From Branchiostoma floridae (Eukaryota; Chordata; Leptocardii; Amphioxiformes; Branchiostomatidae), in NCBI RefSeq assembly GCF_000003815.2, contig NC_049981.1, positions 16,277,921 through 16,341,920 on the forward strand: 64,000 nt of DNA, in the 5' to 3' direction. Position numbers and translations under genes: made by a program. Position 1 is the stretch's first letter, and every line of letters starts with the position of its first letter. The notes beneath the pieces are model-generated. The model was not told where the DNA came from. It saw only the letters and a list, made by a program, of their open reading frames with translations, and made no database searches. This document shows positions 2,556 through 50,966 of the stretch, one piece after another.

Positions 2556-3590
2556 GATGGGAGCAGTCTGGAATCCGACCTATTCTATAGCTGCTGAAAT
2601 AAAGTGCGTAACAGGTTGTTTCNNNNNNNNNNNNNNNNNNNNNNNNNNNNNNNNNNNNNNNNNNNNNNNNNNNNNNNNNNNNNNNNNNNNNNNNNNNNNN
2701 NNNNNNNNNNNNNNNNNNNNNNCGTCAGTTCGATTACATGTGGGATAGGTTCGCAACAAGCTCAAGTCTTTTCGCAACAAGGTACAAAGTCGTTTCGCAA
2801 CAAGGTACAAGTCGTTTCGCATCATTTGAATGTTATTAATCTTGATAGCCTAATAGTATTAGAAATCGTATTCCTAACATAATTATACTCCTTTCGCGTA
2901 AAAATTTACCGGGTGCGAAAGACAACCCCGGCGGCAGAGGAACATGGGGCCGCATGGACCTGGCAGCCCGGTTATTTTCATGCGCCGGGCGGTACAGTTC
3001 ATACGTGCACAGATAGGAGTATAATTATGTTAGGAATACGTAAACGATTTCTAATACTATAAGATTTCTAATACTATCATAATTAATAACATTCAAATGT
3101 TGCAAAACGACTTGTAATTTGTACATGTTGCGAAAAGACTTGCCTTGTTGCGAACTGACGGTTGCGAACTGACATTGTTGCGAAACAACCTGACCGCTCC
3201 AGTTCGCTCCTCTGATCACGGCAAGCAGAATTAGTCTTTTCCTGCCTTTGATTTTTTTCTTCAAATTCATCGCCGGTTGGTGCAGACCACTTTGATATAG
3301 AATAGTACGCCAGTTTTCCGATCAACGTCCAACCTGCAACTCACACATGGCTTTGCTTACAACTAACTCTCGACCACGGTCCGGGAAAGAAAGGTTAACT
3401 TAAGAGGCCGGCCATGGTTGATTGTGTGGGACAGGGGCTTTACTTTGGTACCATACTCCGCTTCAAAGTCTGCTATAGATAGACAACATCAGCTAAGGTT
3501 GTTCACAGCTGCCCTGCTTAAAGTAGCAATTTATTACGCACTTTATTTCAGTATAAACAAAACGAATCCAGACTGCAATACATAGTAAAG
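2556..3590. mobile_element. Nested inverted-repeat (foldback) element
   Basis: Inner arms at about 2740-2895 and 3018-3190 are reverse complements over much of their length, including AGTATAATTATGTTAGGAAT on the right and its complement on the left. They enclose a GC-rich centre of about 120 bases. The outer part of each arm holds repeats of TTTCGCAACAAGGTAC or its complement. A second, outer inverted pair lies at about 2560-2622 and 3525-3585 (CTGAAATAAAGTGCGTAA and its complement). The left arm is broken by a gap. No transposase frame is visible, so this is a non-autonomous foldback-type element. Confidence 0.6.
2623..2722. other. Assembly gap (100 N)
   Basis: Exactly 100 N, the usual placeholder for a gap of unknown size. 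It lies inside the left arm of a foldback element, where palindromes commonly break assemblies. Confidence 0.99.
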
Positions 3591-3930
3591 ATATCAATAA
3601 AGACTGACTTACAAAGTGCCTCATTGTGTGATGAGATATGGAATATTTCTGTGACATCATTTTTGTTGCTGCAAATTGTGTAGTTATCCTTACTTTGGAG
3701 AGCCTGACCACTGACAGAATATTCTGCAAATTGAGTTAAATCAGTCTAACCAAAAGATCAAAAGAAAGTCATATGTATTTCCAATGTTCGTAATGATATG
3801 TGTTACAAGCCTCACTATGAAGAAATATCAATAAAAACGTAATCAACAAGTAAGTAGGTCTTAAAATGGGAAATGGTGTTCTTCCGCCACCATCCAAATA
3901 CAAATCTTGCTGTAACTCCTCAGGTATCTT

Positions 3931-4132
3931 CCTTATACCCCCCTCACATTAGGCGCGATTCCATCGGACGACAAGTCTGCGAGCTCTAATTTATGAGGAG
4001 GCATGACCCTGACGGGAAGAGGAAACTCTGCCATTTCTTCGTCTGCATCATGGTCATGCCTCCTCGTAATTTAGAGCTCGCAGACTCGTCGTCCGATCGA
4101 ATCGCGCCTAATAATGTGAGGGGGGTATAAGG
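3931..4132. mobile_element. Near-perfect palindromic MITE-like element
   Basis: The left arm 3931-4008 starts CCTTATACCCCCCTCACATT and the right arm 4052-4132 ends with its complement GTGAGGGGGGTATAAGG. The arms are almost identical over about 78 bases around a 43-base loop. Only a few mismatches and short indels are seen, which suggests recent insertion or conversion. It lies just 3' of the inhibitor gene on the minus strand. No target duplication could be assigned with confidence. Confidence 0.75.
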
Positions 4133-4362
4133 GCATGAACGGAGAAGGTCATTTTTTTCATTTATTTGTCATAAGAGCGCATTTGGGAACAGTCCTGTAT
4201 TCTGACACCGCCTTTTTTCTGACATCCCTATGTTCCGATAGCCATATGTATGTTGGAGTTTAATTTAATAAGGTTTAGTTAGGAAGTGTGATACATAGGG
4301 GTGATTGTTATAGGGTGTCGGAACATAAGAGTTTCGGAGCAAAGGGGTGTATGAACTTAGAC

Positions 4363-4368
4363 TTTATT
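4363..4368 (-). promoter_or_regulatory. Candidate polyadenylation signal
   Basis: TTTATT on the plus strand reads AATAAA on the minus strand, about 40 bases beyond the stop codon of the Kunitz/antistasin gene. Spacing and sequence fit a poly(A) signal; cleavage is not shown. Confidence 0.5.
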
Positions 4369-4408
4369 TCGGTTGTGTCAGAAGAACATCATTGTTCTCA
4401 GCGCAGCT

Positions 4409-7400
4409 CTATCCGACGTAATGCTCCGGTGCGTTAGCCGACTCGTGCATGACGACCACACAGTCACAGGTAGGGCACCCGGAAGCGTCGATGCTGTGTT
4501 CTCCCTCCTGACACGGTCCGGGGCAGTCGAGGACAGGGCAGTCCAACACCGGCAGGCAGTTTGTCGTGCAGTACTCACAGCCCTCTCCGTCCGTCAGTGT
4601 CTACAGACAGGATGGCAAGGAAACGTGTTAGTCACCAAGAAGATAATGTTTTTGGCGCCAACGTTTGTAGCGTTGTTTGTGGTTTACGGTGCGGTCGCAT
4701 ACGTACGTATCATGCGATTTTGATGTAAATTTTCAAGAAGGCTGTGACAAAACCATACCGCCGACAAAGATAAGACAGCCTTCTCTCGTAAACAAACAGC
4801 TGACTTGTGCATGGCACGTGCAGGGCCCATCCCAAGAATGCCCTCAGTTTCTATTTCAGTTTCAAAGAGATTGTACTATTTTACACGCTGACCTCTCTTA
4901 ACTATTTCACGAGTTACAGTATTTACCTCTCTGGTATACCCGGCTGGGCACTTGGGACACTCCCTGAGGGGGCAGGGGCTCTCACACTGACAGAGGTCAC
5001 AGCCGAACTCGTTCTTGGCATACACCCCACCGGGACAGGCGTCGTTACAGTTCAGCTCATTGCACTCACACTGGCAGGTGTCACAACCGTACTGGTCCTT
5101 CATGTACCTACAGACACAGGGATATCGATATGTACAACAGTTATAGCTGTTATTACCTTAGACAAGAGGGTTATGTTTTTGCACATTGTTTCCATATTTG
5201 CACTTTAACTGAAAATGCAATGGATGTATTGTCATAGAATTCAGTATGTCTTGTACAAAAATACTTTTCTTTGTACTGTAACAGAACTTCTGGTTTTTAC
5301 ATCTCATGTTCTGGACAAGCTCTGATCACGATTTTAAGGTGGCAGATAGGTCTTCTGCTCTAAAAGACGAGACAATGTTGCAAGTTTCGTACCTGTAGTG
5401 TTTAATTTACGGTCAAAACTGCGGAATAAAAGCATCCAGGGGACTGAGAAAGTCTGGTCCATGTGGTCGCTGTTGACAGGATTCTTAATGCATGTAGCAA
5501 TGGGGAAACGTTTCTAACTTAGGGAACACCAAAAAAGGTGAAGAGACCTATGATAAGAACTACGATTTAGAGGGGGAGTGACAATGGCAACGACAATGAT
5601 AACCTACATGTCATTGGGGCAGGGCAGACACTTGAGTTGTGGGCAGGCACAGCCGCATGTCTGACAGCCGTTCTCGTCCGAGGCGTACAGATCGCCCGGG
5701 CACCCCTCCATACAGAACACCTCGTGACACACGTGACCCAGATGCGCATGCGTATCAGTCGCTTCAGCAAGCTCCCGAGCAGGAACTGGTGGAGAAATGA
5801 TCAATATGATTGGTCAATAAATGGATGATGTACACAATATACAGAAAGTTATGAGGAAGAGGAAGATTTCGTGAAAAGTCCTACGTTTCAGGTAGCCTCC
5901 ACAACCTCTCGTCAGTGACTCAGACTGAAGACATGCTGGTTAAAATGTATGCAAAGTCTATCCAGTTGTTTGAGCACATATAACTTTTATCTGTGCTGTG
6001 TATCTTGTTAGTTGGGTGTCTAACCTCCAACGGCGTATCAATGTATAATCTAATATGTTCATTCGAACATTTCACCAACATGGTCAAATCAAGGAGGTTT
6101 TTTTTATTGAATATTTCAGCAGAGTGTATGGTTGGGGTTTTGTCTCTTTGGCATGAACAGTGTTTTTTTAAACCTCCTTGGTCAAATAGAGGAATATTTG
6201 CCCAGCTATCTTTGTGACGTTATATGACCATGATGACGACAAACCAGGGTCAAAACGTGTGAACCTTGCAAGTGAATACTATGTAAAGGCACCAATGATT
6301 CTTGATACTTATTGGGTAACATCGATTCTCATAATTCCACCCAGTACTCTAAGACTAAGATCATGATGTCAACCTGTGAATACTAGACTACCGGTAAGTG
6401 TATTTTAGTACAATTACCGATAGTCTAGAATTGAAATCCATGTTCATAATTAACGATAGCAGCACGTCTCATGCAAGCTATGGATTTCTATCTAAAAGGT
6501 AGATAATTGCTCGTAATAGGTTCGCGAATAATTGTTCCCATACAGTTTCGCACTGTGAAGAGCCCTGCAAATACACAGCGTACTTGTGGTGCATACTCGC
6601 ATGCAAACTAGCGACTATGTTCACAACTGTTTGACGTACATGTGCATGTATGTAGCGGTCTTGAGATTGGACTCTATAGGTTTGTATACCTTTCTGGCAT
6701 GTACAAACAGAAGGTATCATTGGTTCAATCTTCAAACGCGCCGCGTGGATTATGTGTGGAGAGGGCTGTTTAAAATGTTTTGCCTACAACAGCCGTCTAT
6801 TGCCGATATCAAGAAATAAAGGAGGTCTTGATAGGGTCCCTATGTGGTAAATTGCTCAGGATGCAAGGCAATTTTGTAGACACAAACAGCAAATGTTTAA
6901 CGTCTGTATATTACAACAAGTCTGTCGGCTTTGTTGGATTTCTATGGAAAAGGTCCGGAACGTGGGACCCCGCCTCATTAATAAACTCATAGTTGACATA
7001 TTGTTCTTGAATATTTCAGCAGAGTGTGTGGTTTGGGTTTCGTCTCTATGGCATGAACAGTGCTGTAAGATCTACCTAATACTAGATCATTACATCATTG
7101 CTACATCACTGAGGACGTGATTATTCGATAAACCAGACCATTTCTGGATAAGACAACGCCTGACGACGAAAGTGTTCACAGCTTAAAGGAAAATGGGTCT
7201 TGGCTCGCCCATAGAAGGCGTTCAAAGCTGCTTATCTCCAGGCAGTCAAACCTGCATTAGTGACCACCTTTGTATAGTCACCACCTGGCCATTGCGGTCA
7301 CTTTTTATAGGTCCCTTGGATTTTACCAGACCTAAGCATTAAGAAATGGTCTATAGCAGCCACTTGTCCAACGCGGCCACGGACACACGATTTCCGGTCC

Positions 7401-10218
7401 CGTAGATACAGAAACACTGCCTATTGCTACCATACAGCGGCCGTATGTCACCCTGCGCCGAGTTAAAAATCGAAGTTTGCCAGGGTTTGGAGTCATTTTA
7501 GCGGTAGGACTTGCCTTGAACGTTAGATAGCAACAACGCAAGTCTTTGTAAGCATATTTACCAACATTGCGCATGGCAGTATTAATCATTTTCTGTAAAT
7601 TTGACTTTGGCAGGGTCAGCTGAATTTTGAGACGATCGAGACAATACTCATTGCCTTGGTGAGAAAGATTAGTGGGTACTGAAGTCATGTATAACTTATT
7701 GCCTTTGGTCAATTGATCAGCATTTTCTCTATAGTGGCCATATGTCTGTCCCTGGCGTGGCCGCTATAAACAGGTTTAACTGTATCTTTATTGGCGTGGT
7801 CCTAGGCCTACGGAAACAGAGATAGGCGCGACACTATACAGCATACAATGTGGAAATTGCAACGTCGGCTTGGTGTACCGCAAAGATGTTCATAAGTTTA
7901 TATTCTTTCTGATTTTTCAACTTTGCGATATACTTCTGTCCTTCGGAAGGTCTTATTTTGTTTTAATTACGGAGCTTGGTCCGAGTAAAAATGAAAAAAA
8001 ATAGTTTTACGACATCGCCCAATTCATAATACATATTCCCCGGGAATTGTGTCATCCGCGCCTTTCTTACAATGACTCACACTCCGGAGTTTTACAATGA
8101 CAGGATTTTCCCACGAACACTCCCCAGAAATTTCGGTCCAGGGATAGGAGTAGCCTGGAACAGTTGGCCACGTAGATTGACTTTAAGCAAAATGGGACTT
8201 CCCCGAGTTCGATTGTTATTCTATTTTTATTCAGCTTTACCACATTTGTGGGATCCCGGGAGGATTGACATAACAGGTGACAATCGCCGTTGCAAGATGT
8301 CAACCCGGAGACCAGACTGTAAGGTTTGATCTACTCACACCGGGAAGGACCCTTACTCCTTTTGATAAGAGCGTTGGGTTCTTTAACGTACGTGGGTGTG
8401 GCTCTCCCCATGTAACGTGCTATTCGAGGGATAGGACGTAAACATTTCAAAATTTTAAAAATATATAGTTTGCTGGTGCATACGACTTTTAAACACTAGT
8501 AGGCAACATTGGCAACTAGTTCCAATCACAGATGATCGCTCACATTTAACACCAACCAAGGCCTAGAAAAGGTCGGAAGGTTATGCTCAACTGACCTTGA
8601 GTAATATTCTTGTTTACAAAGCGTGACAAAAGTCCAAGATATTTGGTCAAGCATCATTAGGTTTTGTACAGGAAAACTATATACAATGTATATAGCGCTA
8701 ACGTGGCAATCGCTCTACGGTACAACACATCAGCTTCACATGCGCGCTTTTCAGTTAGTTCCAGTCACCCAGTGACATCAGACGGCCTGTCACACCTATC
8801 ATTAGAACATTTAAGAGGTCCAAAGTGATCTTAAGCACCAATATTTGTCGTTAATGCACTCTCAAATATTCTTTCAACACTTTGGTCAACACCAGAATAA
8901 AGGAACAAACTGTTCCAGGTACTGTACTCACTCCCACATCTCTCCATACACTCTCCCCAGGTGTTGAACCTGTTGGAGTTCCCCCCGCAGCCGCCGTACG
9001 GAAAACCTTCACATTTCTGCTTATCGGTGTTGAAGTAAAACGCCTGTTTGTAGTTGTCGCAGGGGCCCGACTCCTTAGGCAGGCTGCAAAAGCCTGTAGA
9101 ATGGAAATGACCATGTACGAAGGTTATGCGAGGGTAACAGTTCGTTACCGGCACTAGGCTTGGGAATTTGCGCCAACGAAAAGTATGATAAGCAAGACCG
9201 AACACACAACACACACACACCACACAGAACATTGAAATACCAGTCATTAGCATTATTTGTGTATATTTCTTGATATACCCCAGGTTTTCCCATGGGACAG
9301 AACAGGGACGATTGATCTGTGACCTGAGGTGTGGGGTCAACTCCAGCGTGCTCTCTGCCCTGCCCTAAGCACAACCAGACACTTCAAGGATAGTCCCCGT
9401 CAAATATTCTCTTTACAGTTCATGGCACCGGGCGCACAAGAGAAGAACTAGCTCTGAACACAGCCCGGACTTCCTTCTTTGTCATGCCTCATGCTTATAA
9501 ATGCCCAACCTTAATTTCATCACCATGAAAAATGGAGATATAGTTTTGAGTGTGTCTGTCTGTTTGTCTGTCTGTCTGCCTGTCTGTCTGTCTGTTTGTG
9601 TTTCCGGATGTTTGTAGTCAGCATAACTCAAGAACCTCTGGATGGATTACGATGATATTTGGTATGTGGGTGGGTGTTGGAAAGATGAAGGTCAAGGTCA
9701 ATTTTGGATCCCCTGGTATGTGACATTGGTACTGCAGCAGAAATTCCATCTCTTTGTATTTTTTGACCTGGATGTGCTATGGTCTGGTTTCAACATGTTT
9801 TGTGCCGTTATAAAGAGCAAGGCTTTAAGATTGATACAATTACTCTAGTGTAATTTCGCTGAACTAACGCTTCTTTATTCGTCCAATATTTAGTTTCTTT
9901 TCTTGGATGTAGCTTTTGCGTACGCCTGTCAAAAATTTTAAAAAGATGCAGATGTAGAAAAGCCTTAGTTTATAATCTCTGCTTCCTCTCAGCTAGTCTT
10001 AAATTTCAGTGGGTCTGGATCCAGCTTGATGTTTTTTTCTGAAGAAGAGATACTGTTTCAATAGTGTTCATATAGCCTGTAATCTATGGATCTTGTTACG
10101 TCTTGGTGCGTTAGTAACAAAAAAAAGTAAAGATAAATGAATATAACTTACTTGCGAGGAGTGCCGAGCTCCCTGCCAGATGACAGACGACGAAAACGAC
10201 CACGGCTGAGGCCTTCAT
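4409..10218 (-). CDS. Secreted Kunitz plus antistasin-like multidomain protein
   Basis: Five exons join in phase: 10218-10152, 9093-8932, 5761-5608, 5107-4927 and 4600-4409, giving 251 residues with a TAG stop. Exon 1 encodes a hydrophobic signal peptide from the first ATG. Exon 2 is a complete Kunitz domain: Cys 25, 34, 50, 58, 71 and 75 have exactly the BPTI spacing, with the FPYGGC core. Exons 3-5 (about residues 88-236) carry roughly five Cys-rich antistasin-like units of the form C-x2-3-C-P..GC-x2-C-x-C; unit 4 is irregular. Both families are normally extracellular serine-protease inhibitors. Oddly, the Kunitz P1 residue is Asp35, and the P1-equivalent positions of the antistasin units are Met, Leu, Asn, Pro and Pro. 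With no Arg or Lys at P1, trypsin-like targets are unlikely; inhibition of chymotrypsin- or elastase-like enzymes, or a non-inhibitory role, is possible. Intron 2 is long (about 3.2 kb). Confidence 0.85.
6106..6164. repeat. Short direct repeat, copy 1
   Basis: About 58 bases (TTGAATATTTCAGCAGAGTG onward to GGCATGAACAGTG) recur at 7008-7063 in the same orientation with a few changes. An inverted CAAGGAGGTTT pair also flanks this copy at about 6090 and 6175. It lies inside intron 2 of the inhibitor gene. Confidence 0.55.
7008..7063. repeat. Short direct repeat, copy 2
   Basis: Partner of 6106-6164, about 900 bases away in the same intron. The flanking CAAGGAGGTTT inverted pair is absent here. 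Confidence 0.55.
7247..7783. mobile_element. Possible old inverted-repeat element
   Basis: CAAACCTGCATTAGTGACCA near 7247 is similar to the reverse complement of the right end, near 7759-7783 (GGCCGCTATAAACAGGTTTA). The ends match at roughly three quarters of positions. A 126-codon open frame on the minus strand (7332-7712) has no recognisable domain. Weak evidence for a decayed DNA transposon in intron 2 of the inhibitor gene. Confidence 0.35.
9551..9850 (+). repeat. Microsatellite-headed dispersed repeat, copy 1
   Basis: A (CTGT)n stretch at about 9551-9600 is followed by GCATAACTCAAGAACCTCTG and TGATATTTGGTATGTGGGTG. The same arrangement (microsatellite, then AACTC(A/G)AGA, then a decaying tail) occurs at 24560-24715 on the other strand and at 32940-33280. 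It lies in intron 1 of the inhibitor gene. No protein is encoded. Confidence 0.6.
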
Positions 10219-11520
10219 TCTGAGCTGTTCACGTGAACGTTGTCGCTGTGACGAAAATTAAGAAGCCACAATAAGTGCCAAGGTAAGACACCTCTTGCGC
10301 AAGTTGGGTAGGGCTGAGTTTGATACGAGTGCTCAGCGTTCAAATAGATATAGCGCGGACTGTACCAACTTATATTAGTCACCATTACGAACATTCACAC
10401 AATATTCTAAAATCTAAATATTAATAATGAAATCAGATCTACATTGAAGATAATTTTTCCTAACAACTCAAACAGAGTGTTTTTTTAATTTAAAACCTAC
10501 TCTTTTCCTAATCTGAGAAAGTCATTTTCTTTCATACCGATAGACAAATACATGGTATGTCCCAGTCAATATTGTTCGTCCCATTGGATAATGATTTACC
10601 TATGTGTAATTGTAGTCGCCTTGGATCCACGTCGTGTTGTGTGAAGTTTGCGCCAAACTCTGGGCGATACTACATTACCGCTCCAAAACACGCGCTATTT
10701 ATACACTAGTGTTTATCCGGGTCATCAGTGCACCCCTAGTACAACATAACACCTGTACAAGCTAACACCCCGTTACTATGGCAACGTGGAAACATATGAC
10801 GTCAATCGGCATCTTGTTTTTGAATGTTCTTAAAGAGGTTTGTCTTGTGGGTATCAACATCGCTATTGGCCGACTTGTTAGTTACAATGTGCCAATTTCA
10901 AACGGGCGATTCCATTCAATACGGTCGATACCATTTCTTCCGTTTTCCCCCAAGATATACCAGATATTTTTTTCGCACCTGCCTTCGTATGTACTGTTTT
11001 AACCCTACATATAATCCTAGATTTCCTTCCTTGTATTGATAAAGGGGAAAATGTATATTCAAAACATATTATATTGAAACATCGGTTTACCCACTTCCAA
11101 GAGTGGAATAGTCCACAAACCTCACAAAATATATATAACGGTTTCCGGACTGCGAATTCGAACTTCACACATCCAATCGTTCCCGTGTATATCAAGATGA
11201 AGTAACCGATGAAGTGTGGTTCGACGAAAACAAGGTTATTGATAATGTTATTTGTGTTCACCTTTGCCCGAGTTGTCTAAATGTGCCAATCCTAAAGAAA
11301 AAGAAAGTCATATATCACATATGCGTGCCGCATTGGGCCCAGCGCAACTTTAAAAAAAGAATGTAGAATATGAATGAACGAAATAATTTGAATGAATTTC
11401 TTTATGTCGGGTATGTAACCCATAGAAACTAGCATACAAAAGATGGTTCGTGACAAAATCACCTACACAACAACCGACCTTGGCATTTTTCAATCTTTGA
11501 CTCATGTCAACATATAGACG
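10219..11520. other. Intergenic upstream region of the inhibitor gene
   Basis: Presumed promoter side of the minus-strand inhibitor gene. A TATATC-like stretch lies near 10347-10354, but the distance to the ATG and the lack of transcript data make a TATA assignment unsafe. No coding exon is recognised. Confidence 0.4.
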
Positions 11521-11900
11521 TTAAAAAGGTGAGGAGAGTAGAGCCTCCCTTGTCAAACTCTGTTGCGACACACTGAATACACTGAAGCGGGTAGACAGTG
11601 TTGTATCCCACCTTACATACATAGTTTGGTTCTTATACCAGTAGACTAGGAATCTCACAAGATATAACGGAACATTTCTGTCAATAAGCGTCTTGAACAA
11701 CAACCGATGGTTCACTCGGTCAAAAGCCTTGGACTCTATAAACACACAAAGATGGGGGGTCCCAGTGCCATGTAATATTCAATAACTTCTTTAAGAGTAA
11801 AAACACACATGTCAATATCATGCTTGGGTTTAAAGCCAAGCTGGAAGTCGGATGTCTGGAAGAAAGGTTTAAGACGACTTAGCAGCAGTGTATCACCAGA
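11521..11900 (-). pseudogene. LINE reverse transcriptase remnant with a frameshift
   Basis: On the minus strand one frame reads FQLGFKPKHDIDMCVFTLKE and continues to a stop. Shifting by one base after it then reads FIESKAFDRVNHRLLFKTLI and on to 11521. Together they match the finger/palm start of non-LTR retrotransposon reverse transcriptases (the SKAFDRVNH block). The catalytic YADD region is not present in the surviving piece. The frameshift near 11746, the truncation and the downstream decay mark it as a dead fragment. Confidence 0.75.
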
Positions 11901-13070
11901 ATATCTGGGTTAAAGTAGTGTACAATAGCAGATGTAGAATAATAGAATAAAAGATGATAAACATAATCACAATATACACGTACATGTACTTACAAACGAC
12001 CGTAACGAAAAATTACCATGGCATAACAAGAGTGTATTTAACAAAACGCTTAACCCATATTTCAAGCAGGAAATCAGCCTAAACGCGACAATTTTTCGTC
12101 TCCACATCTAACGTTTCTTCTTAAATTTTCTCAATACCATTTCACAGTTCCAAAACGGACAATACAAGCAGAATATTGTTACGTTAATATATACGTTTAT
12201 ACTACAAATTTCTTGTTAGAAATGATATTACAATCCATAAAAGATTTAAAAACGTCTATTGTCTTTACCCTGACAAGAAAAGAAAACACCAACAGAATAT
12301 CAATTCTCAATCGCATTTAAAACACATACCCTATATGAAAGAAAACCGGCTCGCACATATGTAAAAAAAATACACATGTAAAAAGTTATGAAAGTTTGAT
12401 CACAAACGGTGACTTGGACTAAAATTACACTGAAACTTAAAACAATTTAAACAGCGAAATCAGGTTTGTTCAATTCTATTATAAGAAATCTATGATATCT
12501 GTCCCGATAATGTATGTGTCGTCTGGTGAGATATTACAAGTTTACAAGCTTAAAAAAGGCTCTATGTAAGTTATAGCTGCTTGAATTACATGTGTGATTC
12601 AGTTGAGCTTGAAGTTGCGCTCTGAGACCCTAAACACAGACGTTGAATCTCTGCGGTATCATTAGAATTAGGCACCACTGTTTCTCTGTTTCCATAAGTG
12701 AAGTAGAAACATATTTTCTCTCTCTCTCTCATGTGCTCAATACAACATTTAATAGAAAGGTGTGACAAAAACCGTTGTACAACAAAACATAACAGGGTGG
12801 TTGAGGCCATCCGTCCTCGTTGGAATGTTTAATAAAGAAGTGTTATAACGTTTCAGATTGGAATTCTACTTTTCATCAATCTAATTCCTTTTAGATTGAG
12901 GAATGAGCTCTATATTTGTGTATCGTTCTTTGTATGTAACGCAATGCAGGACATGTAGTCAATGACAATGTATAATTGACTGGTCCCTTCATAGCTCTGT
13001 GGACTTCGGAAAAAGCAGACACACAAAACAAACGGACAAATAACTCACAGATGTTCTCTCATATGTAAAA
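11901..13070. other. AT-rich intergenic DNA
   Basis: No coding signal. A short (TC)n run lies near 12717-12730. Only short frames without recognisable motifs. Confidence 0.4.
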
Positions 13071-13077
13071 TAACCAT

Positions 13078-13255
13078 TGGGGTCGTGTGGCGCAACAGTA
13101 GGGTGTTTGGCCCATAACCCAGAGGTCCTGTGTTTAGTTGTCTACATCTAACGTTACATCATTAACGTTACATCATTAACTTCGGTTTAGTTCAATGGGT
13201 AGCCATGGTTGTATGTTTTTGTACAGCCAAATAAATGAAATCCAACTGTAAAGTT
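13078..13255 (+). repeat. Probable tRNA-derived SINE, degenerate head and tail
   Basis: GTGTGGCGCAACAGTAGGG resembles a tRNA A-box region and CAGAGGTCCTGTGTTT a degraded B box. The AGAGGTCCTG stretch is shared with the element at 50520. The unit ends near GTACAGCCAAATAAATGAAA. It may be a fused or partial element. Confidence 0.4.
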
Positions 13256-15390
13256 TGATTGACGGCCTGGATCTGTCTAATCGCATAAAACGACAGCAGG
13301 GTGATCGTACGTGTGTCTAGCGACATGCCCAGTTAGGCATCAGAAGTTCATCGTCTAAAAGGTAGGGCGGGATCAATAAGAGACGAGGCGTGCAGAAGCG
13401 CCTCCTGCCATGATAGATCACACTGCAGATGGGTTCATGTACATACCACCAGTCATCAGGGGACAGCCAATCGCTTCAATTCAAGGACACGCTGGAGCAA
13501 GATTAGCCTGGAGCAAGATCAACAAATTGTATTTTGTAATTTTCACAGCTATACGTTGAACAGTACATGGTGTAACCTCACTTTTGCACGGTCCAGATAT
13601 TTCAGACTTTCGTGCGATAACGTTTACTTCCAAAATGAAAATAATTTGAAGATTAACGATCACCTCCATGAATACGAAACATAACGAAGACATCCACTGT
13701 TTTATACATGTACTGGTATCACAATGAAGTTTGTTGACATTGTTAATATTTCATGCCGGTTTGTTTTCATCATGTGCAGTATCAGTATGTATGATTTCAT
13801 TTGAAACACGTAAGACTAAGTTGTTTGACTCAGGGATATCAAAATGAACAAAATACTCCTCCTCGTTTCTGCTTGGATTTTAGGATTGGCATTCTCTGCC
13901 TAATAAAGAGCATCATTGAACAACAAGAGCCATCTCTGGGAACCCTCCTCCCAAACAACACGGCCTTTCACTCCCCAAATGTCAGCCATACATCCCCCTC
14001 CCCCTACAAACACTATAGCGGACTGTGCCATGAATTATGGAGCAGCGCACTCCAGCGGGGTGGAAAGAATACCCACACAATACCGCAGCCTTTGCACAAT
14101 CTCCTGCACTCGGGCTGAGCAAATGCTACGCTAAAGGTCGCTCTCTCTCTCCATCTCGACCTACTGACAGCTAGACGTATTTTTCCTTAAAAGCCCCTTC
14201 GTGGTGGGGCGCTGTTTTGTCTTCCGTGAAATACTACGCTATGTACGTGTGTACCCCGTGAGAAAAGACTGCGTACTTCCATTGATGTTCACATAGCAAG
14301 CTACAATCAGCGGTATCAGCTGAGCATCTGTCACTCTCACATCTCCAAGAAGACAGAGATCATCAGCGTCTTGTGATTGTGAAGAAAATCAGTGATTTAC
14401 GTCTTCTGAGGAAATCACAGCCATCCACGAAGCCTGTTTATATCGACTGGGCATCCAGACAACCCGATGCATAGTGCTACTCAAAGGCGCCATTGGTAAA
14501 ATTCATCTCTATAGGAAGGCTGAACGCTGAGCAGTGATCTTTATTCATCTTCGCGTGTGGAGGAATCCCCCTTTCATAGGGTAAGGGAAAATCCCATTCT
14601 CCAAAGCTGTGGTTTTGTTGTAAATACTGTAAGTATGTAGGAGAATAGATCTAGAACATGCTGTATGCTGCGGTCAATGGTAAAGGGGGAGGGTCATCCG
14701 TATTGGAATCAGTACCCGAAAAGCAGCGGCGAATCTATACCCACCAGTCTACATGTGTACTGGGTATTTACGGATCGATGTCTGGATATAGTACGTCGGG
14801 TCACAGACCTTGGATAGCCCTACCCACTATGGGTTGATGTATACCATAGACGGCTTGTTGAAAACAACACTAGAACAAAAGTACGGGATACAGAGGGGTC
14901 CAAAATGGGTTCCTTTGCTTTGAAAAGAGAAACCATGAGTTATATCCTTGTAACTACGTGGAGAGAGAGCAAAATTACGTTACTTGTTTTGGTATGCTGG
15001 TTTTGTTTTCTACAGAAGTGAAGAATTGTGTCTCTGCTGTCGATGTGCACACCCAGTAGTTAATCTTTAGACGGAAGTAGAACTCTAGATTCTGTCAACA
15101 CTTCTCTCCCGGATGAGGTGAAATTGTCATCACTGCCCGACCATCCAAGCCGAACACTCAACCATGATTGTGTCTCCTCACTAATCACCATGGTAACGAC
15201 CCGCCCTGAATCCTCCTGGTGTAAAATTGAGGTCACATTTTCCAATTTGTCGCCTGGAGGCCGCACGATTCTTTCTCAAACATTAGCTGTTTTCAAACCG
15301 TTGCCGTTTCGTCGTAAAACTCGTGGATGCAGAAACGATCTAATGCGATGAAACTGTCTAAGTCTTCATCATACGTTTTGTTTGTCAATG
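13256..15390. other. Intergenic, no gene recognised
   Basis: Several open frames of about 70-105 codons occur, but none shows a known domain, signal peptide or phase-compatible splice partner. Confidence 0.4.
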
Positions 15391-33312: not shown

Positions 33313-36300
33313 ATGCTGCATGATGAGTTCACCGTCGTGGCAGGAGGCATCACCCTCATCATGCTCGCCAGGTACCTCCTCCTCGTCGGACCAATGGGAA
33401 CCCTGCTGATGACGACGTCACTCCTCCTGTCCGTCCAATGGCTGCTCCGCCCGCGGAACTTCCCGCCGGGACCCTGGGGACTACCCGTGCTGGGCAACCT
33501 GCACCAGATCGCTGTTGACCCCATGAAGAGTTTGACAGAATTCGGAAAGAAGTATGGAGACGTATACTCTATCAGGGTAAGCATTCTGCAGGCTGATCAG
33601 AACGCAACATGACCATGGTTTGACATGGTTTTGAAAAATGCAAGGAAGGAAAACTTTTGCTTAAGATTCATGTTCTTTCATTCATGAGGTCAGATTTTTG
33701 ATAGATTTAGTGGAATGTTAAGGGATTGGGTAAGCATTTTCGACTTGCTGGATTTGTATCTTCAGGTTTGGTATTCAATGTTTTATTGCAGTTATTTCAA
33801 AACAATGAAGATATGGAGAAATATACCCTGAAGTACTTGTTGCTATTGCGGCATGTCGGCAACATGTGATGCCGAAGGGATGAGTGAATGCGTTAGAGAG
33901 TAATTTAGAGGGTGATTGAGTGAAGAAATGAGTGATCGACAGTGTGTTTGAAAACAGGTGGTAATTTCATATGCTATTCTACATTCATTTTTTTGTGTGT
34001 GCCATAGATTGGAATGGACAATGTCGTGATCCTTTGTGGCTGGGACGCCTTCAAAGAAGCCATCGTAAACAAGGCTGACGAGTTCCGCATGCGGCCCTCC
34101 CACCTCTACATCTACAAAGAATATGCAGACTCTAAGGGTACGTGTCTATTAACTATGTACTATGTACCCTTTATGACCACACATGTCTGGACTTTAGGGA
34201 TGCCCGTTTAGAGCTTGTTTTATATGACATTATTTTGTAGCTGGTGTGTTTAAAATAATTTAGTCCTATTTTCCAGGCATTGGATTTGTCAACGATGCCA
34301 CAACTCACAGGCTGAACAGAAAGTTCGTTCTCAAGACTCTGAAAGAATTCGGTCTCGGTAAACAAACCCTAGAAGAAGACATCGCCCAAGAGGCCCGCTA
34401 TCTGTGTCACCAGATCTACAAGCATGACGGCAAACCGATTGGCAAGATGGGAAGCATGCTGACCAGGTCGTCCGCCGGCATCATCCTGCGCCTCGTGTTC
34501 GGTAAGCATTACGAGTGGGAGGACCCGGAGTTCAAACTCTTCGTGGGGAACATCACGCGCGGGTTCGAGCTGATGACGATGTACGGCGCCATCTTTAACG
34601 TGTACCCATGGCTGAGGTACATCCCTTACGTCAAATCCTTGGGACAGGCCGTCATGGACAACATGTCAGACTTTAAGAAACTCATCCTCGACAAGATTGA
34701 GCAGCACAGGAGCAGCCGAGTTCCAGGGAAACCGAGGTTCGTTTGAACATTAGTGTTTTACAAAGGCTACGATTCAATTATTATCATACTGAGGTAAAAG
34801 ATGAGAAAGCTCAAGCCATGCGTTGGACAATATTAGATGTATCGTATGAGTGTTATAAATTACCCGAGCAGCCTTGGTAACGTCTGCTCCACCCATTGAT
34901 GAGGTTTGTCAAGCTTGCTTTTGCTTGATGTTACTGGCTTGGGGAGAACTTCGGAGATGTTGCTATAATCAGAGTTAGTTCAGTACCCAGGAGTGGTCCA
35001 GGTGGCCTTGTACTGAGCAAACGTATTTGTTTGCGATGATGTTTTGTTCAGCTAAGGAGCGTTTACGCGTGTTATTGCCGTGCCTGTCACCATGTTGGTG
35101 TCTCCCTTTGCACCAGGGCCTCCAACTGTCCACTATTGAACGTCTTCCTCTCGAATGATACCAGTAGAACAGAAAATTTATAACGTTATAACGTTATAAA
35201 TAAAGAACAGAAAATTTTATGTACGTTCGATCCATTGAAATGCAAATAAAGACACCAACTATGGATATGGCGGTCAGTACCTGCCTGTTTCATTGAGTGA
35301 CCTTTTCTCTGAATCCCTCCTTACAGAGACCTTGTCGACGCCTTCTTCGACGAGCTGGAAGACAACAGTGGAGTGAACGACTTTTCCCATCTACTCCCGA
35401 TGGTGGCCGATCTTCTGACAGCCGGGATGGAGACAACCGCCACTACTCTGCACTGGACTGCTCTCTACATGGCGCTGTACCCTGACGTACAACGGAAGGT
35501 CCAGGACGAACTGGAGGCGGCTGTAGGGAAAGGCAAAGCCCCCACCTTAGCCGACGTCTCGAAGCTTCCCTTCACGGAGGCGACGATCAAGGAGATTCAG
35601 CGCATCTGCAACGTCGCGCCCCTAGCGGTTCCCAGGATGACCACAACTGATGTTGAGCTGAGAGGCTATCACATCCCCAAAGGCACCCAGGTTTGTTGTT
35701 TTACGGCTATTCAATCTTCACAAATCTCCACGTCGCCGTTGTGTTTTAAAAAAAAATCCCCTTTGTTAAACACACTTGTTAAACATCCATCTGTACACAG
35801 GAAATACTGATATGACGACTGACATCTATACGTTTCCATGTTCCATTAGGTGTGCATGAACCTGTACACCGTTCACATGGACCCGAAGTATTTCTCGGAA
35901 CCGGAAGTCTTCAATCCCAACAGGTTCCTAGGGGATGATGGGAAGGTACAGAAGATGGAGGCATTTGCTCCCTTTTCTGCAGGTATGTTTCGTCTGTTGT
36001 CTTTTCTGTTTTGGGGATGTATTTGCCTTTATAGTAGCCGGAATCTAGCAGGTGGCATGACGTAACAATCCAACATGGTGGCGACCGGGGACAGCAGCAA
36101 AACCAATACACTGGATTTAGTTATTATATTTGAAATAGTTTCTTATTTGTCACGATGCTTTCGCAGGTCGCCGGGTTTGTATCGGAGAGCAGATGGCCAG
36201 GAACGAGCTGCTGATCTTCTTCACCACCATGATGACGCACTTCACCTTCAAGCTGCCAGAGGGCGCCCCTACTCCGGACTTAAGCAAGGGGAAGCTCGGG

Positions 36301-37840: not shown

Positions 37841-40800
37841 TTAAACCGTAGTGGTTTGTTGAAGTGCGACGCGTATTTCAGAAGGTTCTTGTTCCATGTT
37901 TCGAACTAGCTCCTCGGGTTGCCTTGGTCGGGGCATGGCGTAAACCAGCCGTTCCCAAAACCGTTCGTCCCCCCACCTTAGATACGTGTGCGTCTTTATG
38001 TAGTGTTTGATTTCTGGAGGGGCGTCGTCAACAGATATTTCCTCCAGGAGAATCATGATCAAACGATTGGCGCAATCCCGTAAAACCTGCGCATGCGCAG
38101 CTTGAAATTCCAGCTGGCACCAATCGCTGTCTAGGAAGTTTCTAGAGACAACCACGATGGTTCGTCTACTCTCCTCAACCGCGGTCAAAATGTTCTCAGC
38201 AATAGGAACACCCGGAATGAAGTCACGGTGGTGAAGACAGACTCGGAAAGGAGGATCTCTACTTTCAAGGCCTGGTAACATGTGCTGAAGGATAAAGTCT
38301 AGGTCATGTTGACTGTAGGACAAGAAGGCATCGTAAGGTTTGTCCGTGTTTTCCCGCTCTTCTTTGAATCGCCATCCGTACCGTGCATAGAGGTAAACTT
38401 GTAGGTCTTCCTTCCTCTTATGCAGCACTATCCCAACTAATATCAGTAAAGACAGGAGAACAACGACAATAGAGAAACCAATGGTAATCCTGCTCTTTCT
38501 CTCTGCGTTTGCAAGATCACAATGAAGGATATCTGACGAAAGAGATCCGACATTTTCTTGAACTTGGTTTTGTTCATGTGTACATGTGACATTTCCCTCA
38601 CTCAGAATCGATTTTGTGTTCAGCATCCAGTATTTGAGCCACAGAATATCACAATCACATACGAAGAAGTTTCCCCATAAGGACAAGTGTTGCAAATTTG
38701 TTAAATCAGAGAACAAATCATTTGACAGAGCTTTCAATAGGTTGTGTCCTAAATGCAATACTTGTAATAATGGTAAATGCCGAAAGGCGTCCTTTTGAAC
38801 AGCTCTAACCCCGGATCTGTTCAGGTACAGCTCTCGCAAGTTTTCTAAATACATAAACTGATGTCCTGTGATTTCCTCCAAGTTATTTCCGTCCAAATAG
38901 AGAATTTCCAACAATGGAATGTGGCTAAACGATATCGAATCAATTTTTGTGATGTTATTTTTGCTAAGATACAACTCTCTGGTTATCGGAGCTTCCATAA
39001 AGGCAGTTTTCTCAATTCTCATAATGCTGTTCCGTCCGAAATGAAGGATTGTTGCTGAACTTGGAATCCCGTTAGGAACCACAGATAAATTCCTTTCTGA
39101 ACAGTCAAAAAGTTCATTCCAAGGGGAAAGAGTAGAATTTTGTTCACCTTGAACCATGCAACCGCAAGTAGAAGGACAGTCCCACTTCTGACACCATGTT
39201 TGAGATGGGCTGAGATCTTCGAGCTTTATTCCACACAAGTTTTCAGGTGCCTGGCACGTCATCTCTTTAAAGTCTGTATTTGTGTACAAAGCTCCATTTT
39301 GGGCAGTTCCAATGTTCTGCAAGAGCTCATATATCCCGCAATCACATATGACTGGGTTATGACGCATTAGAACCGTCAACCTGTGATGCAGGCCAATTTT
39401 GGCGTATCTATAGCGATCATTATTGTCTATGACAAGCCTGGGCAAACTGAAAAAGCTGAATCTATCAAGTCGAAATGGAATAGATAGCAGTCTGTTCCAG
39501 CGCAAATCTAGTGTGAGTATGAGTTGCTTTGATGACTGACTCTCACTTATATCAAAGTACGAGTTGGTGGCATAAACTGTCGTCAGTGAGTTGTGTGACA
39601 GATTCAGAGTGACCGTTCTCTCAGCTACTGCGAGTGATGGCAGAATGGATGCATCTAGAGTTGATACGTTGTTGAATGAAATGTCGATATCTTCACAATA
39701 TTTAGACAATAAGCCCGAAAGAAACCCCTCGACTGACGTCAGAGAATTATGATGAAGTGTTAACGATTCTAATCTAACAAGAGGCTTAAAGGCGTCCATG
39801 GAAATATCAGTGAGATGGTTGTAGCCAAGCTTTAAAGATGTCAAAAGGTGTGAACCAAGAAATACTTCGTCTGATAGTGACTCTAAGTAGTTCCCTTCAA
39901 GATTCAGTGAACGTAATGCTGGCAAACTGTTGAAGGGTGAAATTCCTATGTGTGACAAGTTATTGTAGCTCAGGTCCAACGATATTAGCGACTGCAACCC
40001 TTCAAACCCGTCCTCTTCGATTGCTGATAGAAGTCCCACGGATAGATCCAATTGTTCAAGGCTACCAAGATGCAGAAACGTTCCGTTTTGTATCGTCAGA
40101 ATACTATGGTGATGCAAATCAAGTATTCTGAGATTCGACAGCCCATCAAACGAACATGGATATATAAACTGAAGGGATCCTCTAGTAGGATACTTCAGAC
40201 CTGCGGGTCCGGGTAATGTTACATTTCTGACTGGACCCATTAAGGATAGAACTAGTGTGCCTAGCCCTGGTAAGGCTTCGAAGGGGGAACCATCCAAAGT
40301 ATCCAGGAAGTTAGCTCTGATATACAGATTTTGGAGATTTGGCATATTTGCAAATGAGTCAGACATGTTGTTTATTCGATTGACCGACATGTCAAGCGAT
40401 CTAAGCTTTGGCATGTTGTTGAAAAACTCCGGCATTAATTCGGGTATGTCGTTAAAAGAAAGGTCCAATTCTTCTAAGTTCATAAGGGGAGCTTGCCCAT
40501 TCGTTTGGTGATAGATGGCCTCTGGAAATGTATCCAGGTATAGCCAATGCAGTGACAGTTTCTTTAACTGTGGTACGGACGAAAAAAGATCCTGGTCCAA
40601 CCTTACTGGATCTAGAGGTTCATTTATACGAGAGAATTCAGTGTGTTGATCATAGCCATCGGTGAAAAGCGAAATGCTGTTTCCTATATCTAGAAACTCA
40701 ACATCTGCCAATCCGGCCAACACTTCCTTTGTTATTTCCGCTTCAAAACAATCCAATATACGCAGTGTCTTTATGAACGACGGTAGCTTGTCAAAAACAG

Positions 40801-41086
40801 TAAAATGGTAGCTGCTGATTTTGTATCTACAATCTACGAGCAGCTGAGTGACCGTTGTATCGAAAAAGTCAACATTAACAATGGATAAGGCAGATATTTG
40901 TGAGCACATACAGGTGTATGTTGAAATAGAAGTTTGAAGTGCACACACGTAAAGCTGACCGCGACCGACGAGTATGTCGCCATTGTTGCTGAGGGTAGGC
41001 CGCCTGTTCGATGCTGTAGTCATGGTAACGTTTCGGTTGCCATGGCAGACGGCACCGATTAACATGAAGAACAGAAGACCCTTCAT
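37841..41086 (-). CDS. Toll-like receptor, multiple-cysteine-cluster type, single exon
   Basis: One uninterrupted frame of 1081 residues. A signal peptide (MKGLLFFMLIGAVCHG) leads to an N-terminal Cys-containing cap and about fifteen leucine-rich repeats. A first C-terminal cysteine cluster (CDCGIYELL, about 577-636) is directly followed by an N-terminal-type cluster (CPSTCGCM, about 637-672), more repeats, and a second C-terminal cluster (CDCDILWLKYW, about 807-857). A membrane helix follows at about 866-889, then a TIR domain (917-1060) with YDAFLSYS (box 1), RDFIPG (box 2/BB loop, Pro kept) and FW (box 3). The doubled cluster is the Toll/protostome-like (mcc or P-type) layout, not the single-cluster vertebrate layout. 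It should sense extracellular ligands and signal through MyD88-type adaptors. Intronless coding is common among lancelet TLRs. The ligand is unknown. Confidence 0.95.
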   Translation of the reverse strand: MKGLLFFMLIGAVCHGNRNVTMTTASNRRPTLSNNGDILVGRGQLYVCALQTSISTYTCMCSQISALSIVNVDFFDTTVTQLLVDCRYKISSYHFTVFDKLPSFIKTLRILDCFEAEITKEVLAGLADVEFLDIGNSISLFTDGYDQHTEFSRINEPLDPVRLDQDLFSSVPQLKKLSLHWLYLDTFPEAIYHQTNGQAPLMNLEELDLSFNDIPELMPEFFNNMPKLRSLDMSVNRINNMSDSFANMPNLQNLYIRANFLDTLDGSPFEALPGLGTLVLSLMGPVRNVTLPGPAGLKYPTRGSLQFIYPCSFDGLSNLRILDLHHHSILTIQNGTFLHLGSLEQLDLSVGLLSAIEEDGFEGLQSLISLDLSYNNLSHIGISPFNSLPALRSLNLEGNYLESLSDEVFLGSHLLTSLKLGYNHLTDISMDAFKPLVRLESLTLHHNSLTSVEGFLSGLLSKYCEDIDISFNNVSTLDASILPSLAVAERTVTLNLSHNSLTTVYATNSYFDISESQSSKQLILTLDLRWNRLLSIPFRLDRFSFFSLPRLVIDNNDRYRYAKIGLHHRLTVLMRHNPVICDCGIYELLQNIGTAQNGALYTNTDFKEMTCQAPENLCGIKLEDLSPSQTWCQKWDCPSTCGCMVQGEQNSTLSPWNELFDCSERNLSVVPNGIPSSATILHFGRNSIMRIEKTAFMEAPITRELYLSKNNITKIDSISFSHIPLLEILYLDGNNLEEITGHQFMYLENLRELYLNRSGVRAVQKDAFRHLPLLQVLHLGHNLLKALSNDLFSDLTNLQHLSLWGNFFVCDCDILWLKYWMLNTKSILSEGNVTCTHEQNQVQENVGSLSSDILHCDLANAERKSRITIGFSIVVVLLSLLILVGIVLHKRKEDLQVYLYARYGWRFKEERENTDKPYDAFLSYSQHDLDFILQHMLPGLESRDPPFRVCLHHRDFIPGVPIAENILTAVEESRRTIVVVSRNFLDSDWCQLEFQAAHAQVLRDCANRLIMILLEEISVDDAPPEIKHYIKTHTYLRWGDERFWERLVYAMPRPRQPEELVRNMEQEPSEIRVALQQTTTV

Positions 41087-41211
41087 GTTTCGGATGAAAC
41101 CTTCCTATGGTACAGATGTGATGCCGCTGTTCTGGTACACTCCAGTGATGCATCCAATTCTATGGAAAATGGACAAAGAAGAGTGTCACTACCTCTGGAA
41201 TCATAAATTTA

Positions 41212-46613: not shown

Positions 46614-47402
46614 TGAGACTTTAGACTTTCAGACTTTATTTGAAAATCCACTAGTGAAGTTCCGGATCCAAGTGAGACACTCGTCAATGGTTGTGCCTAG
46701 CAGTTTTACTTCTGTAACTTGTTCTATGCTCTTACCGTCCACAGTCAAGACAAGTTTGGGCCTTTCTGACATTTTAGGTTTACTTTCGAGAACTATGCAT
46801 TTTGTCTTTGATGCGTTCAGGAAAAAAAATGGTTCGTTCTTACCCAGTTGCAGATATTGTTCACTTCTGTTTGTAATTATATATAAATTACTGGAGATTG
46901 CCTCAATTGCAGGGTCACAGGTGTAGGCTGAGGTGTCGTCAGCGTACATATCTGCTGTGGCTTGACTTACAGCAAGTGGCAAATCATTTGTGTATGTAGT
47001 GAATATGAGGGGCCCCAAACAACTCCCCTGGGGAACACCACATGGTAGTTCCAAGAAGGAAGAGTTAGTGCCATTAATGTGGACACATTGTTGCCTTCCT
47101 GTCAAGTAACTTGCCATCCATGTAGTTGTGGATTCGCTAAAGCCATAGCAGCCAAGTTTCTGGAGTAGACGGCTGTGATCGACAAGATCAAATGCTGTCG
47201 AGAAATCAAGAAAAATGGCGCCAACTAGGTTTCCCTGATCTATACTATGATGCCAGTCATCTACCATGTGTAGCAGTGCCGTGCATGTTGAATGGTTTTT
47301 CCTGTATGCATGCTGGTGATTAGACATAAGTGAGTTCTGTTGGAAACTAGAGTTCGGCGACCTCATACCTCCATGAATATTTAGAGCTTTTGTTAATTTC
47401 AT
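46614..47402 (-). mobile_element. 5'-truncated non-LTR retrotransposon (reverse transcriptase)
   Basis: An open frame of 257 codons (47402-46629) encodes reverse-transcriptase blocks: HAYRKNHSTCTALLHMVDDW, FLDFSTAFDLVDH, GVPQGSCLGPLIF and the catalytic MYADDTSAY. The Jockey/CR1 kind of LINE is the likely source. The copy lacks an endonuclease and the 5' part, and its end has tandem AAAGTCT-type units (read on the minus strand), a typical LINE tail. The frame is intact within the fragment but the start is not a natural one. Unlikely to be active. Confidence 0.85.
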
Positions 47403-47639
47403 GCAAATGACTTAACATTAACATGATTTATGCATGGTGTTGTTCATCATGTCGAAAGTAAAATTCTTAATTCAAATCATTAATCAAGTTGTTTTGCAAT
47501 TTTTGCATAAGTTCCTTATTTGCATTTTTGATATCTGCATATGTTCCACCGATTATAATTAACAAGTGTTACATACATCGAAGTCCAGTTATTGCAAACA
47601 ATGGAATTATACAGTTTCCTCATTAATCATGCAAATTAA

Positions 47640-48260: not shown

Positions 48261-48728
48261 GAAAATTAACAGATTATTTTATCAGGCATATACACGTTTT
48301 GGCGCTTGCAGGTGGAAGAAAATAACAAGAGTGAAGTAGAGTAGAGTTTATAGTAATTTCTACCAAGTTTTACAGCCAATCGTACAGGTGCAGTTAGCGT
48401 TGAAGGATTTTAAAACACCAGTGTAAGTCTAATACTCCACCAAACAGATCTCTTTCCTTAACAGCCATTAACGTTCTGAGTTTAAAGTCCGGGTTTTATA
48501 GGGGCCCACATACAACCTTCAGAAAATGTCTAAGAAACGTTTTAAGTGGCATCATACGTGGTTAGTGTTTTTTTTTTCAAATTAAGACTTTCAGATAACG
48601 ATTTGTTTAATACCAGAGTCACCGTGCTCTTGTTTGATACGAGAGTATATTTTTCTGTTTTGTGGGTTCGGTTTCGTCTCTGGCTTGCGTCATTTCGTCT
48701 TTTACACCAACCCAGTGTGAAAACAAAC

Positions 48729-50966
48729 ATGGCCGCCGCTCCAGCAGACGAACCGCCGGTCTTCAAAATCCTGGTGTTAGGCGACATCGACGTCGGAAAA
48801 ACATGCTTTATACACCGATTCTGTGGGGGAGGATTTCTAGAGAGCTACATTTCAACTATTGGTGAGCCCCAAACCCATACTTTTCGCGTAAATGGACAGA
48901 AATTCCGACACCCTTATGTGTGTTGACATAACTTTACCAGGGCTTATCTGACAATGCAAACTCGTTTCTTTATTTTGTGTCATTTTTGCAGCAATAACAG
49001 TTTGTTCTAGTCTCACAGAGGTCAGGAATTGACCACAGAAGTCTCAAGTAGTTGACAATCTGACGGAAAGATGTGAAATGTTGTTAACGTTACATGATTG
49101 CCAAACACCCCATAAAATTCGACTGCAAATTATTTGTGTAACGTTAACGTTGTTTACGTTTATTTACCCAAAGCACACTCAGAAGGCTGATGTGATTTAT
49201 ATTCAAGTCAGTCAGTTCCTTACGAAACAAAATACGGAAATTTTATTACCAGGTTACTATCAATGTATTAGCACAGGTTATCAGAAATAAGTAAACAAAA
49301 ATAGCAGAAATGTAACGTTACGTACAATGGTTGATAATCACATGGTTTACCGGTTCCTCATGTCATGCAAGTTGATGTCATGTAATTAACGTTAATTCTT
49401 AAACAGGACATGTTTGTGAGAGCTAAAATTGCACACACCTCAAGTATTACATGGATTCCATCTAGAAGTATGCAGGCCCCAGCTGGCAAATCTACAGCAT
49501 TGACATAACACATTACAGTAACTGAAATTATTTTTACTGAAATTATAACATACAGTACAAAATAATACGTATTTCAGTATACTGTCAGCGTGTGTTTGTA
49601 ACTTGTTAGAGTATTGAAATGATACAATAGTGACATAAAACAATAAACCCGAACTGAAACGATGCTGGACTAAGATTCGGACAGAAACATTACAGTACTA
49701 GTATAAATGTTACAGTATTGTACCCAAGAGGAGGGGTGCAGTTTGTCAGGCTAACCTAATCTTGTCAGTTAGAATATTTTACAGGATGTTATTTCAAAAT
49801 ACATTATGCAGAGTGAGTAGGTGTGTAAGTGTAGACGTTGCATTTCTTGAACCCTTGCTAGTACAATGTACATGGTAACAAACCATTGTGGAAGGAATCC
49901 GCTGTTTAACGTCACTGATAACAATGTGTGTTTTGGCGGGCCACAAGGGCTGATTTAACTAAAGATTTGTCAAGAGCTGCACCTGTTTAACTCTAATGCA
50001 GTTGAAGTCTTTATTGTATATATTGTATTTGAATATCTCAATTGTACCTGAATATTTTCCAGGTTGTTTGTTTTAAGATGAATAAGGTCTTGATTTTAAA
50101 CACACATTAGGTAGGTCTTTATACAGCTGCTACCACTCAAAAGTACCTTTGACATTTATTCAAATCTCCAAACAGATGTACATGTATAGTAGGGTGGAGC
50201 TCAGAGTTTAAGGCATGCTTTGAGGCTTGCTTTTTAGGGTTCGCTTAAAAGGCTGGGCTGTCTACCAGGCCAGGCTACCTGGCCTGTCTACCTGGCCTGG
50301 CTATCACGTCAGGCTAATCAGATCCCCCCATTCACAGCCCCATCATATGGCACTCAGCCAAAATAGCTGATTGGCAGGCATAGTAATTGCTAATCTCCAA
50401 CACTGTCCTGAGTGAGTGACCTGAGGTTGACCTGTCCACTGGCTGGACCCTTCGGGAATGTGTCTGGGAGGCCTTCCTTGCAGCGTGTCAGGAACACATT
50501 CAAGTACTGCACCAGTACTGTGTTGGGTAAATGCTTTAGGGTGTTAGACCTAGAAAACAGAGGTCCTGGGTTCAAATCTATATCTATTTAAATCTAAATC
50601 CTTCGACATGTCACAAAATCTGTGCTGTTTACAGTACTTTCCCCACTCCAAATTATACAAGGGGGTTGGAGAGATTGTTGGCAGTGGAAGGAGAGGATTG
50701 GGCTCTGTCCTGGACACAAAAATTGTGCAGTGGATAACAATCCACAGCCTCAAAAAGGCTATGTGAGTACCGAGATTGTATATGTCAACATGGCATACTA
50801 GCATAGAGAACAAGGAGGTGCATGTAATTATACCCCCTTGGTCAGTTCAAGTTTAGCTTTACAGTGATTTATCAATTTTATGCTCTTCCTTCTTGTTGCA
50901 CGAGCTGCACGTTCTAGAAGATAGATATTCAATAAGGAAACAAATTTCTGTTGCTGGCAAGCCCAT

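Follow-up and report, generated by a model that had tools for sequence, protein, structure and literature searches.

A predicted secreted lancelet protein that joins one Kunitz module to five antistasin modules and has no basic P1 residue in any of them

Results

The whole stretch of DNA that we analysed, called the window here, is 64,000 nucleotides long. Reading of its open frames and splice sites places a gene at 4409-10218 on the minus strand, with the ATG at 10218 and the TAG ending at 4409. The spliced frame of 780 nt encodes 259 aa and is assembled from five exons separated by four introns. Every intron has a GT donor and an AG acceptor, the reading frame is single and continuous, and the intron phases (1, 1, 2 and 0) are in agreement at every exon joint. 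A preliminary description of this DNA had given exactly these coordinates, and its gene model proved right. The gene is made up as follows.

10152..10218, minus strand: exon 1, with the start codon and a predicted signal peptide (MKASAVVVFVVCHLAGSSALLA); phase-1 donor GTAAGT (from the open reading frame and the donor)
8932..9093, minus strand: exon 2, the Kunitz exon, phase 1 at both ends (from Pfam PF00014 and the exon borders)
8936-9088, minus strand: Kunitz cysteines C25-C75 (from the translation)
9056..9058, minus strand: codon of the Kunitz P1 residue, Asp35, followed by P1' Asn36 (from the translation and alignments to PDB Kunitz chains)
5608..5785, minus strand: exon 3, with a linker, antistasin unit 1 and the first part of unit 2; phase-2 donor
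5649-5729, minus strand: antistasin unit 1, P1 Met, loop MEG (in exon 3)
Split between exons 3 and 4, minus strand: antistasin unit 2, P1 Leu, short loop LP
4927..5107, minus strand: exon 4, with the remainder of unit 2, unit 3 and the first part of unit 4; phase-0 donor
4984-5064, minus strand: antistasin unit 3, P1 Asn (in exon 4)
Split between exons 4 and 5, minus strand: antistasin unit 4, P1 Pro, short loop PK
4409..4600, minus strand: exon 5, with the remainder of unit 4, unit 5, a C-terminal tail and the stop codon
4460-4540, minus strand: antistasin unit 5, P1 Pro, loop PGP (in exon 5)
4363..4368, minus strand: possible polyadenylation signal (AATAAA/ATTAAA, a short motif match only)

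The hydropathy of exon 1 averages 2.91 over its best ten residues, and this exon is predicted to encode a signal peptide, the cleavage site of which was placed by inference. At the other end of the gene, 40 bases separate the stop codon from the possible polyadenylation signal, and further motifs of this kind begin at 4269 and 4166. The protein has 37 cysteines: one in the signal peptide, six in the Kunitz domain and 30 arranged as five sextets. We predict that the product is a secreted cysteine-rich protein with one Kunitz and five antistasin modules.

The window holds several other open frames. A long one at 37844-41104 (minus strand) has leucine-rich repeats and a TIR domain and resembles a Toll-like receptor; two at 34264-34743 and 35313-35807 (plus strand) match cytochrome P450. 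A reverse-transcriptase-like frame at 46632-47411 (minus strand) is probably part of a mobile element. A Ras-like frame at 48546-48923 (plus strand) scores over the Pfam cut-off, and a weaker Ras match at 52329-52658 (plus strand) lies below it.

A Pfam search with the spliced protein found Kunitz_BPTI (PF00014) at E 2.9e-16 and 59.9 bits, against a curated cut-off of 21, and Antistasin (PF02822) at E 3.3e-7 and 31.1 bits for the whole protein, against a curated cut-off of 21.2. The match to both domains is beyond chance. The domain content first read from the letters, a Kunitz domain and about five antistasin units, is thereby confirmed, with both domains over their cut-offs; the five antistasin stretches were accepted under a permissive threshold (each at E up to 10), and the best of them covers residues 151-177. 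The Kunitz domain had also been called perfectly spaced. Indeed, its six cysteines (C25, 34, 50, 58, 71 and 75) have the spacing of BPTI, the GGC core is present, and the domain aligns without gaps with the PDB chains shown. A search of the lancelet's own genome with PF00014 found the Kunitz exon (C3:16286856-16287011, 63.9 bits); the window's antistasin units are not among the own-genome PF02822 matches at E up to 0.001. When the antistasin part alone was searched against the PDB, there was no match up to E 10. A profile made from the five units brought up hirustasin, guamerin and gigastasin at E values of 0.06-0.21 only; antistasin itself came at E 4.3, amid chance matches, so we use these alignments for register and not as proof of homology on their own. 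The leech antistasin domain has a ten-cysteine pattern (PMC6265900, in excerpt). We did not find the leech-type N-terminal four-cysteine part before the cores of the lancelet protein: its five units hold 30 cysteines, and none lies between C75 and C96.

To fix the P1 register, we aligned the five units together and then compared their profile with hirustasin (P1 Arg) and guamerin (P1 Met) in the PDB alignments. The residue after the reactive-loop cysteine is Met, Leu, Asn, Pro and Pro in units 1 to 5, and the Kunitz P1-P1' pair is Asp35-Asn36. The same residues had been assigned at the outset in all modules, and the register matches both hirustasin and guamerin. Units 2 and 4 lack one residue in the loop (Cx2C in place of Cx3C), and because of this it is doubtful that P1 of the Leu unit and of the first Pro unit is a canonical site. 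Between core cysteines 2 and 3, the gap is three residues in 41 of the 42 units listed from the genome and four in the remaining one. The Cys3-Cys4 spacing of the window's units (11 in units 1, 2, 3 and 5; 14 in unit 4) differs from that of the listed genome units, which is 10 in 42 of 42, in a list biased to profile-like units. Since the list favours Pfam-like units and missed the window's own, further genome units with a spacing of 11 or 14 may be absent from it. On the Kunitz side, Asn is found at P1' in none of the 25 other reactive loops of the genome, and ten aligned Kunitz domains (from five chains of the 138 PDB matches) carry Ala, Gly or Val there. The Kunitz P1' Asn, the two short antistasin loops and the Cys3-Cys4 spacing of 11 or 14 are the distinctive, new features of this protein.

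The absence of a basic P1 had been described against the premise that both families mostly use Arg or Lys at this position. The source of this expectation is the characterised leech inhibitors, and the premise holds for five named ones (PMC6265900, in excerpt); Leu is at P1 in an insect antistasin gene (PMC10545863, in excerpt). It does not hold in this genome, where P1 is non-basic in 33 of the 42 listed antistasin units and in 12 of 26 Kunitz loops. These counts come from the same assembly (513,431,437 bases in 431 contigs). PF02822 at E up to 0.001 gave 42 units with P1 read in all, comprising 9 with Arg/Lys, 13 with Asp/Glu and 20 with other residues; among the listed units, then, the acidic class is larger than the basic one (13/42 versus 9/42). 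PF00014 gave 30 matches including the window's, four of which are without a reactive loop and were excluded from the P1 count. The other 26, three of them entered by hand owing to a short start, cut end or insertion, divide into 14 with Arg/Lys, 5 with Asp/Glu and 7 with other residues, the window's included. With the window's gene left out, 11/25 Kunitz loops are non-basic and 4/25 acidic. At the own-genome rates, and assuming independent modules, the probability that a one-plus-five protein lacks a basic P1 altogether is about 0.13. This figure is a yardstick only, as the modules within a genome are related to each other and the lists give minimum counts. A protein without a basic P1 in any module is not beyond chance, and most of the surprise disappears because non-basic P1 is common in both families in this genome. 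Across the genome's Kunitz loops, having a P1' outside the set Ala, Gly and Ser was not significantly linked to a non-basic P1 (Fisher p 0.09).

The searches also turned up two groups of modules outside the window. A dense array at C3:21200696-21214191, on the gene's own contig at a distance of about 4.9 Mb, holds 19 of the 42 listed antistasin units; its P1 residues are very mixed (A, S, R, K, D, E, T, H and P), with 6/19 basic. Four near-identical Kunitz domains at C8:7213900-7215340 and C8:8978459-8978731 have K, E, R and D at P1; P1' and P2' vary too, and 12 of 51 columns are variable overall. Diversifying selection on the reactive sites of the C8 domains is possible. A better lead than the window gene may be the occurrence of acidic P1 residues across the two families, together with the P1 variation on C8. 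The nearest own-genome Kunitz domain to the window's is identical at 25/51 positions and has P1 Glu and P1' Asp. Contig C145 was considered as an allelic copy and rejected, with a Kunitz domain only 41% identical; the DNA of window positions 3001-14000 had no match in the first 9999 of the 415906 bases of C145.

Discussion

We favour, with a probability of about 0.4, the reading that this protein is a secreted scaffold with the Met unit, at most, inhibiting an enzyme of the chymotrypsin/elastase type. Directly established for it are the reading frame, splice borders, domains, P1 residues, loop lengths and base rates. One gene would give rise to a secreted chain in which five closely packed six-cysteine antistasin cores come after a Kunitz module. 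This Kunitz module would have kept its fold and lost a working canonical loop, with its acidic P1 and bulky P1'. Four of the five antistasin units would have altered loops, two of them shortened (Leu and Pro) and the others with Asn and Pro at P1. Unit 1, which has a full-length loop and the guamerin-like P1 Met, would be the only module likely to act still as a canonical inhibitor, and its target would be a chymotrypsin/elastase-like enzyme. The remaining modules would serve as stable spacers or protein-binding surfaces. For the single transcript, secretion, disulfide pairing, acting module and target, we rely on inference.

A scaffold with at most one working head is favoured because an acidic Kunitz P1 weakens binding and because the loop and Met of unit 1 resemble guamerin. 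Guamerin inhibits chymotrypsin- and elastase-like enzymes (PMC6265900, in excerpt), and poeciguamerin, which has Met at the same position in its printed sequence, inhibits elastase and not trypsin (PMC10342134, in excerpt). Given P1 Asp and P1' Asn, canonical inhibition of serine proteases by the Kunitz domain is unlikely. In BPTI, an acidic P1 gives weaker binding to trypsin and chymotrypsin than do aromatic, large hydrophobic or polar residues (PMC3407930, in excerpt, citing Helland 1999). Since a polar P1 such as Asn binds better than an acidic one (same source), unit 3 is not to be dismissed on its P1 alone. The preliminary description had offered two alternatives, a non-trypsin target reached through the Met and Leu units or a loss of inhibition. 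The Met unit has a full-length guamerin-like loop; the Leu unit, with its shortened loop, is a weak candidate. Other authors do not dismiss Leu units, since chymotrypsin inhibition was proposed from sequence for an insect antistasin with P1 Leu (PMC10545863, in excerpt). Against the favoured reading, the loop of unit 1 may not be held as in guamerin, because the N-terminal four-cysteine part is absent and the Cys3-Cys4 spacing is 11 and not the 10 of guamerin. Asp at P1 need not abolish binding either, because 3btd, a BPTI-trypsin complex among the PDB matches of the Kunitz domain, still forms with what we take to be the P1-Asp variant of BPTI.

It is also possible, and nearly as likely as a scaffold with one working head, that the whole protein is no longer a protease inhibitor and has become a binding or matrix/mucosal scaffold with a non-inhibitory Kunitz domain. 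The altered loops and cysteine spacing of the antistasin units point in this direction, as do the acidic P1 and P1' of the nearest own-genome Kunitz domain. Among the PDB matches are the Kunitz domain of collagen VI alpha-3, presumably non-inhibitory, and, as the top single-domain match at 53.8 bits, mambaquaretin-1 (P1 Asn), which we take to be a receptor ligand. However, unit 1 retains its full-length P1 Met loop, and the likeness to mambaquaretin-1 (26/53) is not above that to the inhibitor boophilin domain 1 (27/53, 55.0 bits). With boophilin equally similar, we rejected a special link to mambaquaretin, and the likeness says nothing on function.

A multi-headed inhibitor of unusual targets seems rather unlikely. 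Such targets would be either cysteine proteases or enzymes that tolerate Asp, Asn or Met in the P1 position, of which Asp/Glu-specific serine proteases are one example. Acidic P1 recurs in this genome (5/26 Kunitz loops, the window's included, and 13/42 antistasin units), which may mean use and not decay, and the near-identical Kunitz paralogues on C8 include both E and D beside K and R. The Fasciola inhibitor FhKT1 (P1 Leu) acts on cathepsin L-like cysteine proteases and on no tested serine protease; however, it also depended on Arg19, which is Gln in the lancelet Kunitz domain (PMC7692546, in excerpt). The bulky P1' Asn, absent from the other 25 Kunitz loops, and the two shortened antistasin loops also argue against unusual targets.

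There is a small chance that two genes or splice forms, one for a Kunitz protein and the other for an antistasin protein, were misjoined across the 3146-base intron. False fusions are documented in lancelet gene models (PMC4967905, in excerpt), and AATAAA/ATTAAA motifs lie inside this intron at 8231, 7967, 7792 and 6108. By the two own-genome profile lists, no other locus pairs Kunitz and antistasin within 1 Mb; the closest pair elsewhere, on contig C1, is about 1.1 Mb apart. Separate genes are nevertheless disfavoured, because the phase-1 donor of the Kunitz exon joins the phase-1 antistasin acceptor in frame and because one crude scan of the intron found no hydrophobic start exon with a phase-1 donor, which would leave split antistasin exons without a signal exon. 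The same scan recovers exon 1, and elsewhere it gives at least one candidate in 2 of 15 equal chunks. The Kunitz and antistasin exons probably belong to one transcript.

Very unlikely, finally, is that the lancelet's Kunitz and antistasin modules form an inhibitor repertoire diversified at P1, with acidic residues there as functional choices, for instance against microbial or the animal's own Glu/Asp-specific proteases, with the window gene contributing acidic Kunitz and Met antistasin heads.

The non-basic, often acidic P1 residues in both families are a warning against naming trypsin inhibitors from domain names. The genome also offers natural P1 variants that can be tested, some of them on near-identical scaffolds.

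Among known proteins, guamerin shares P1 Met in a C-x3-C loop with unit 1 of the lancelet protein. It differs in being a single ten-cysteine domain with a Cys3-Cys4 spacing of 10, whereas the lancelet has tandem six-cysteine cores with 11 or 14. Gigastasin (PDB 5ubm), presumably of leech origin, has more than one antistasin unit, like the lancelet protein. One of its units likewise spaces its cysteines 4-3-11-2-1 and has Gly, a non-basic residue, at P1, but its aligned chain is without a Kunitz domain, and another stretch has P1 Arg (a weak match, -3.0 bits). Mambaquaretin-1, with P1 Asn, has Ala at the equivalent of BPTI residue 20, as does the lancelet Kunitz domain; mambaquaretin-1 has Gly at P1' and is a single domain, and the likeness is an ordinary one. 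In the limited literature set searched, no paper was found that brings antistasin, Kunitz and amphioxus together. Mixtures of Kunitz and antistasin are already in print for insects: BmSPI56 of Bombyx and PxSPI44 of Plutella likewise combine the two in one predicted protein (PMC3278429 and PMC5309989, both in excerpt). The insect proteins add further modules (WAP and TSR in the first; WAP, thyroglobulin type I and WR1 in the second), whereas one Kunitz and five antistasin modules are all that was found in the lancelet protein, and the window gene adds a simple chordate example of this mixture.
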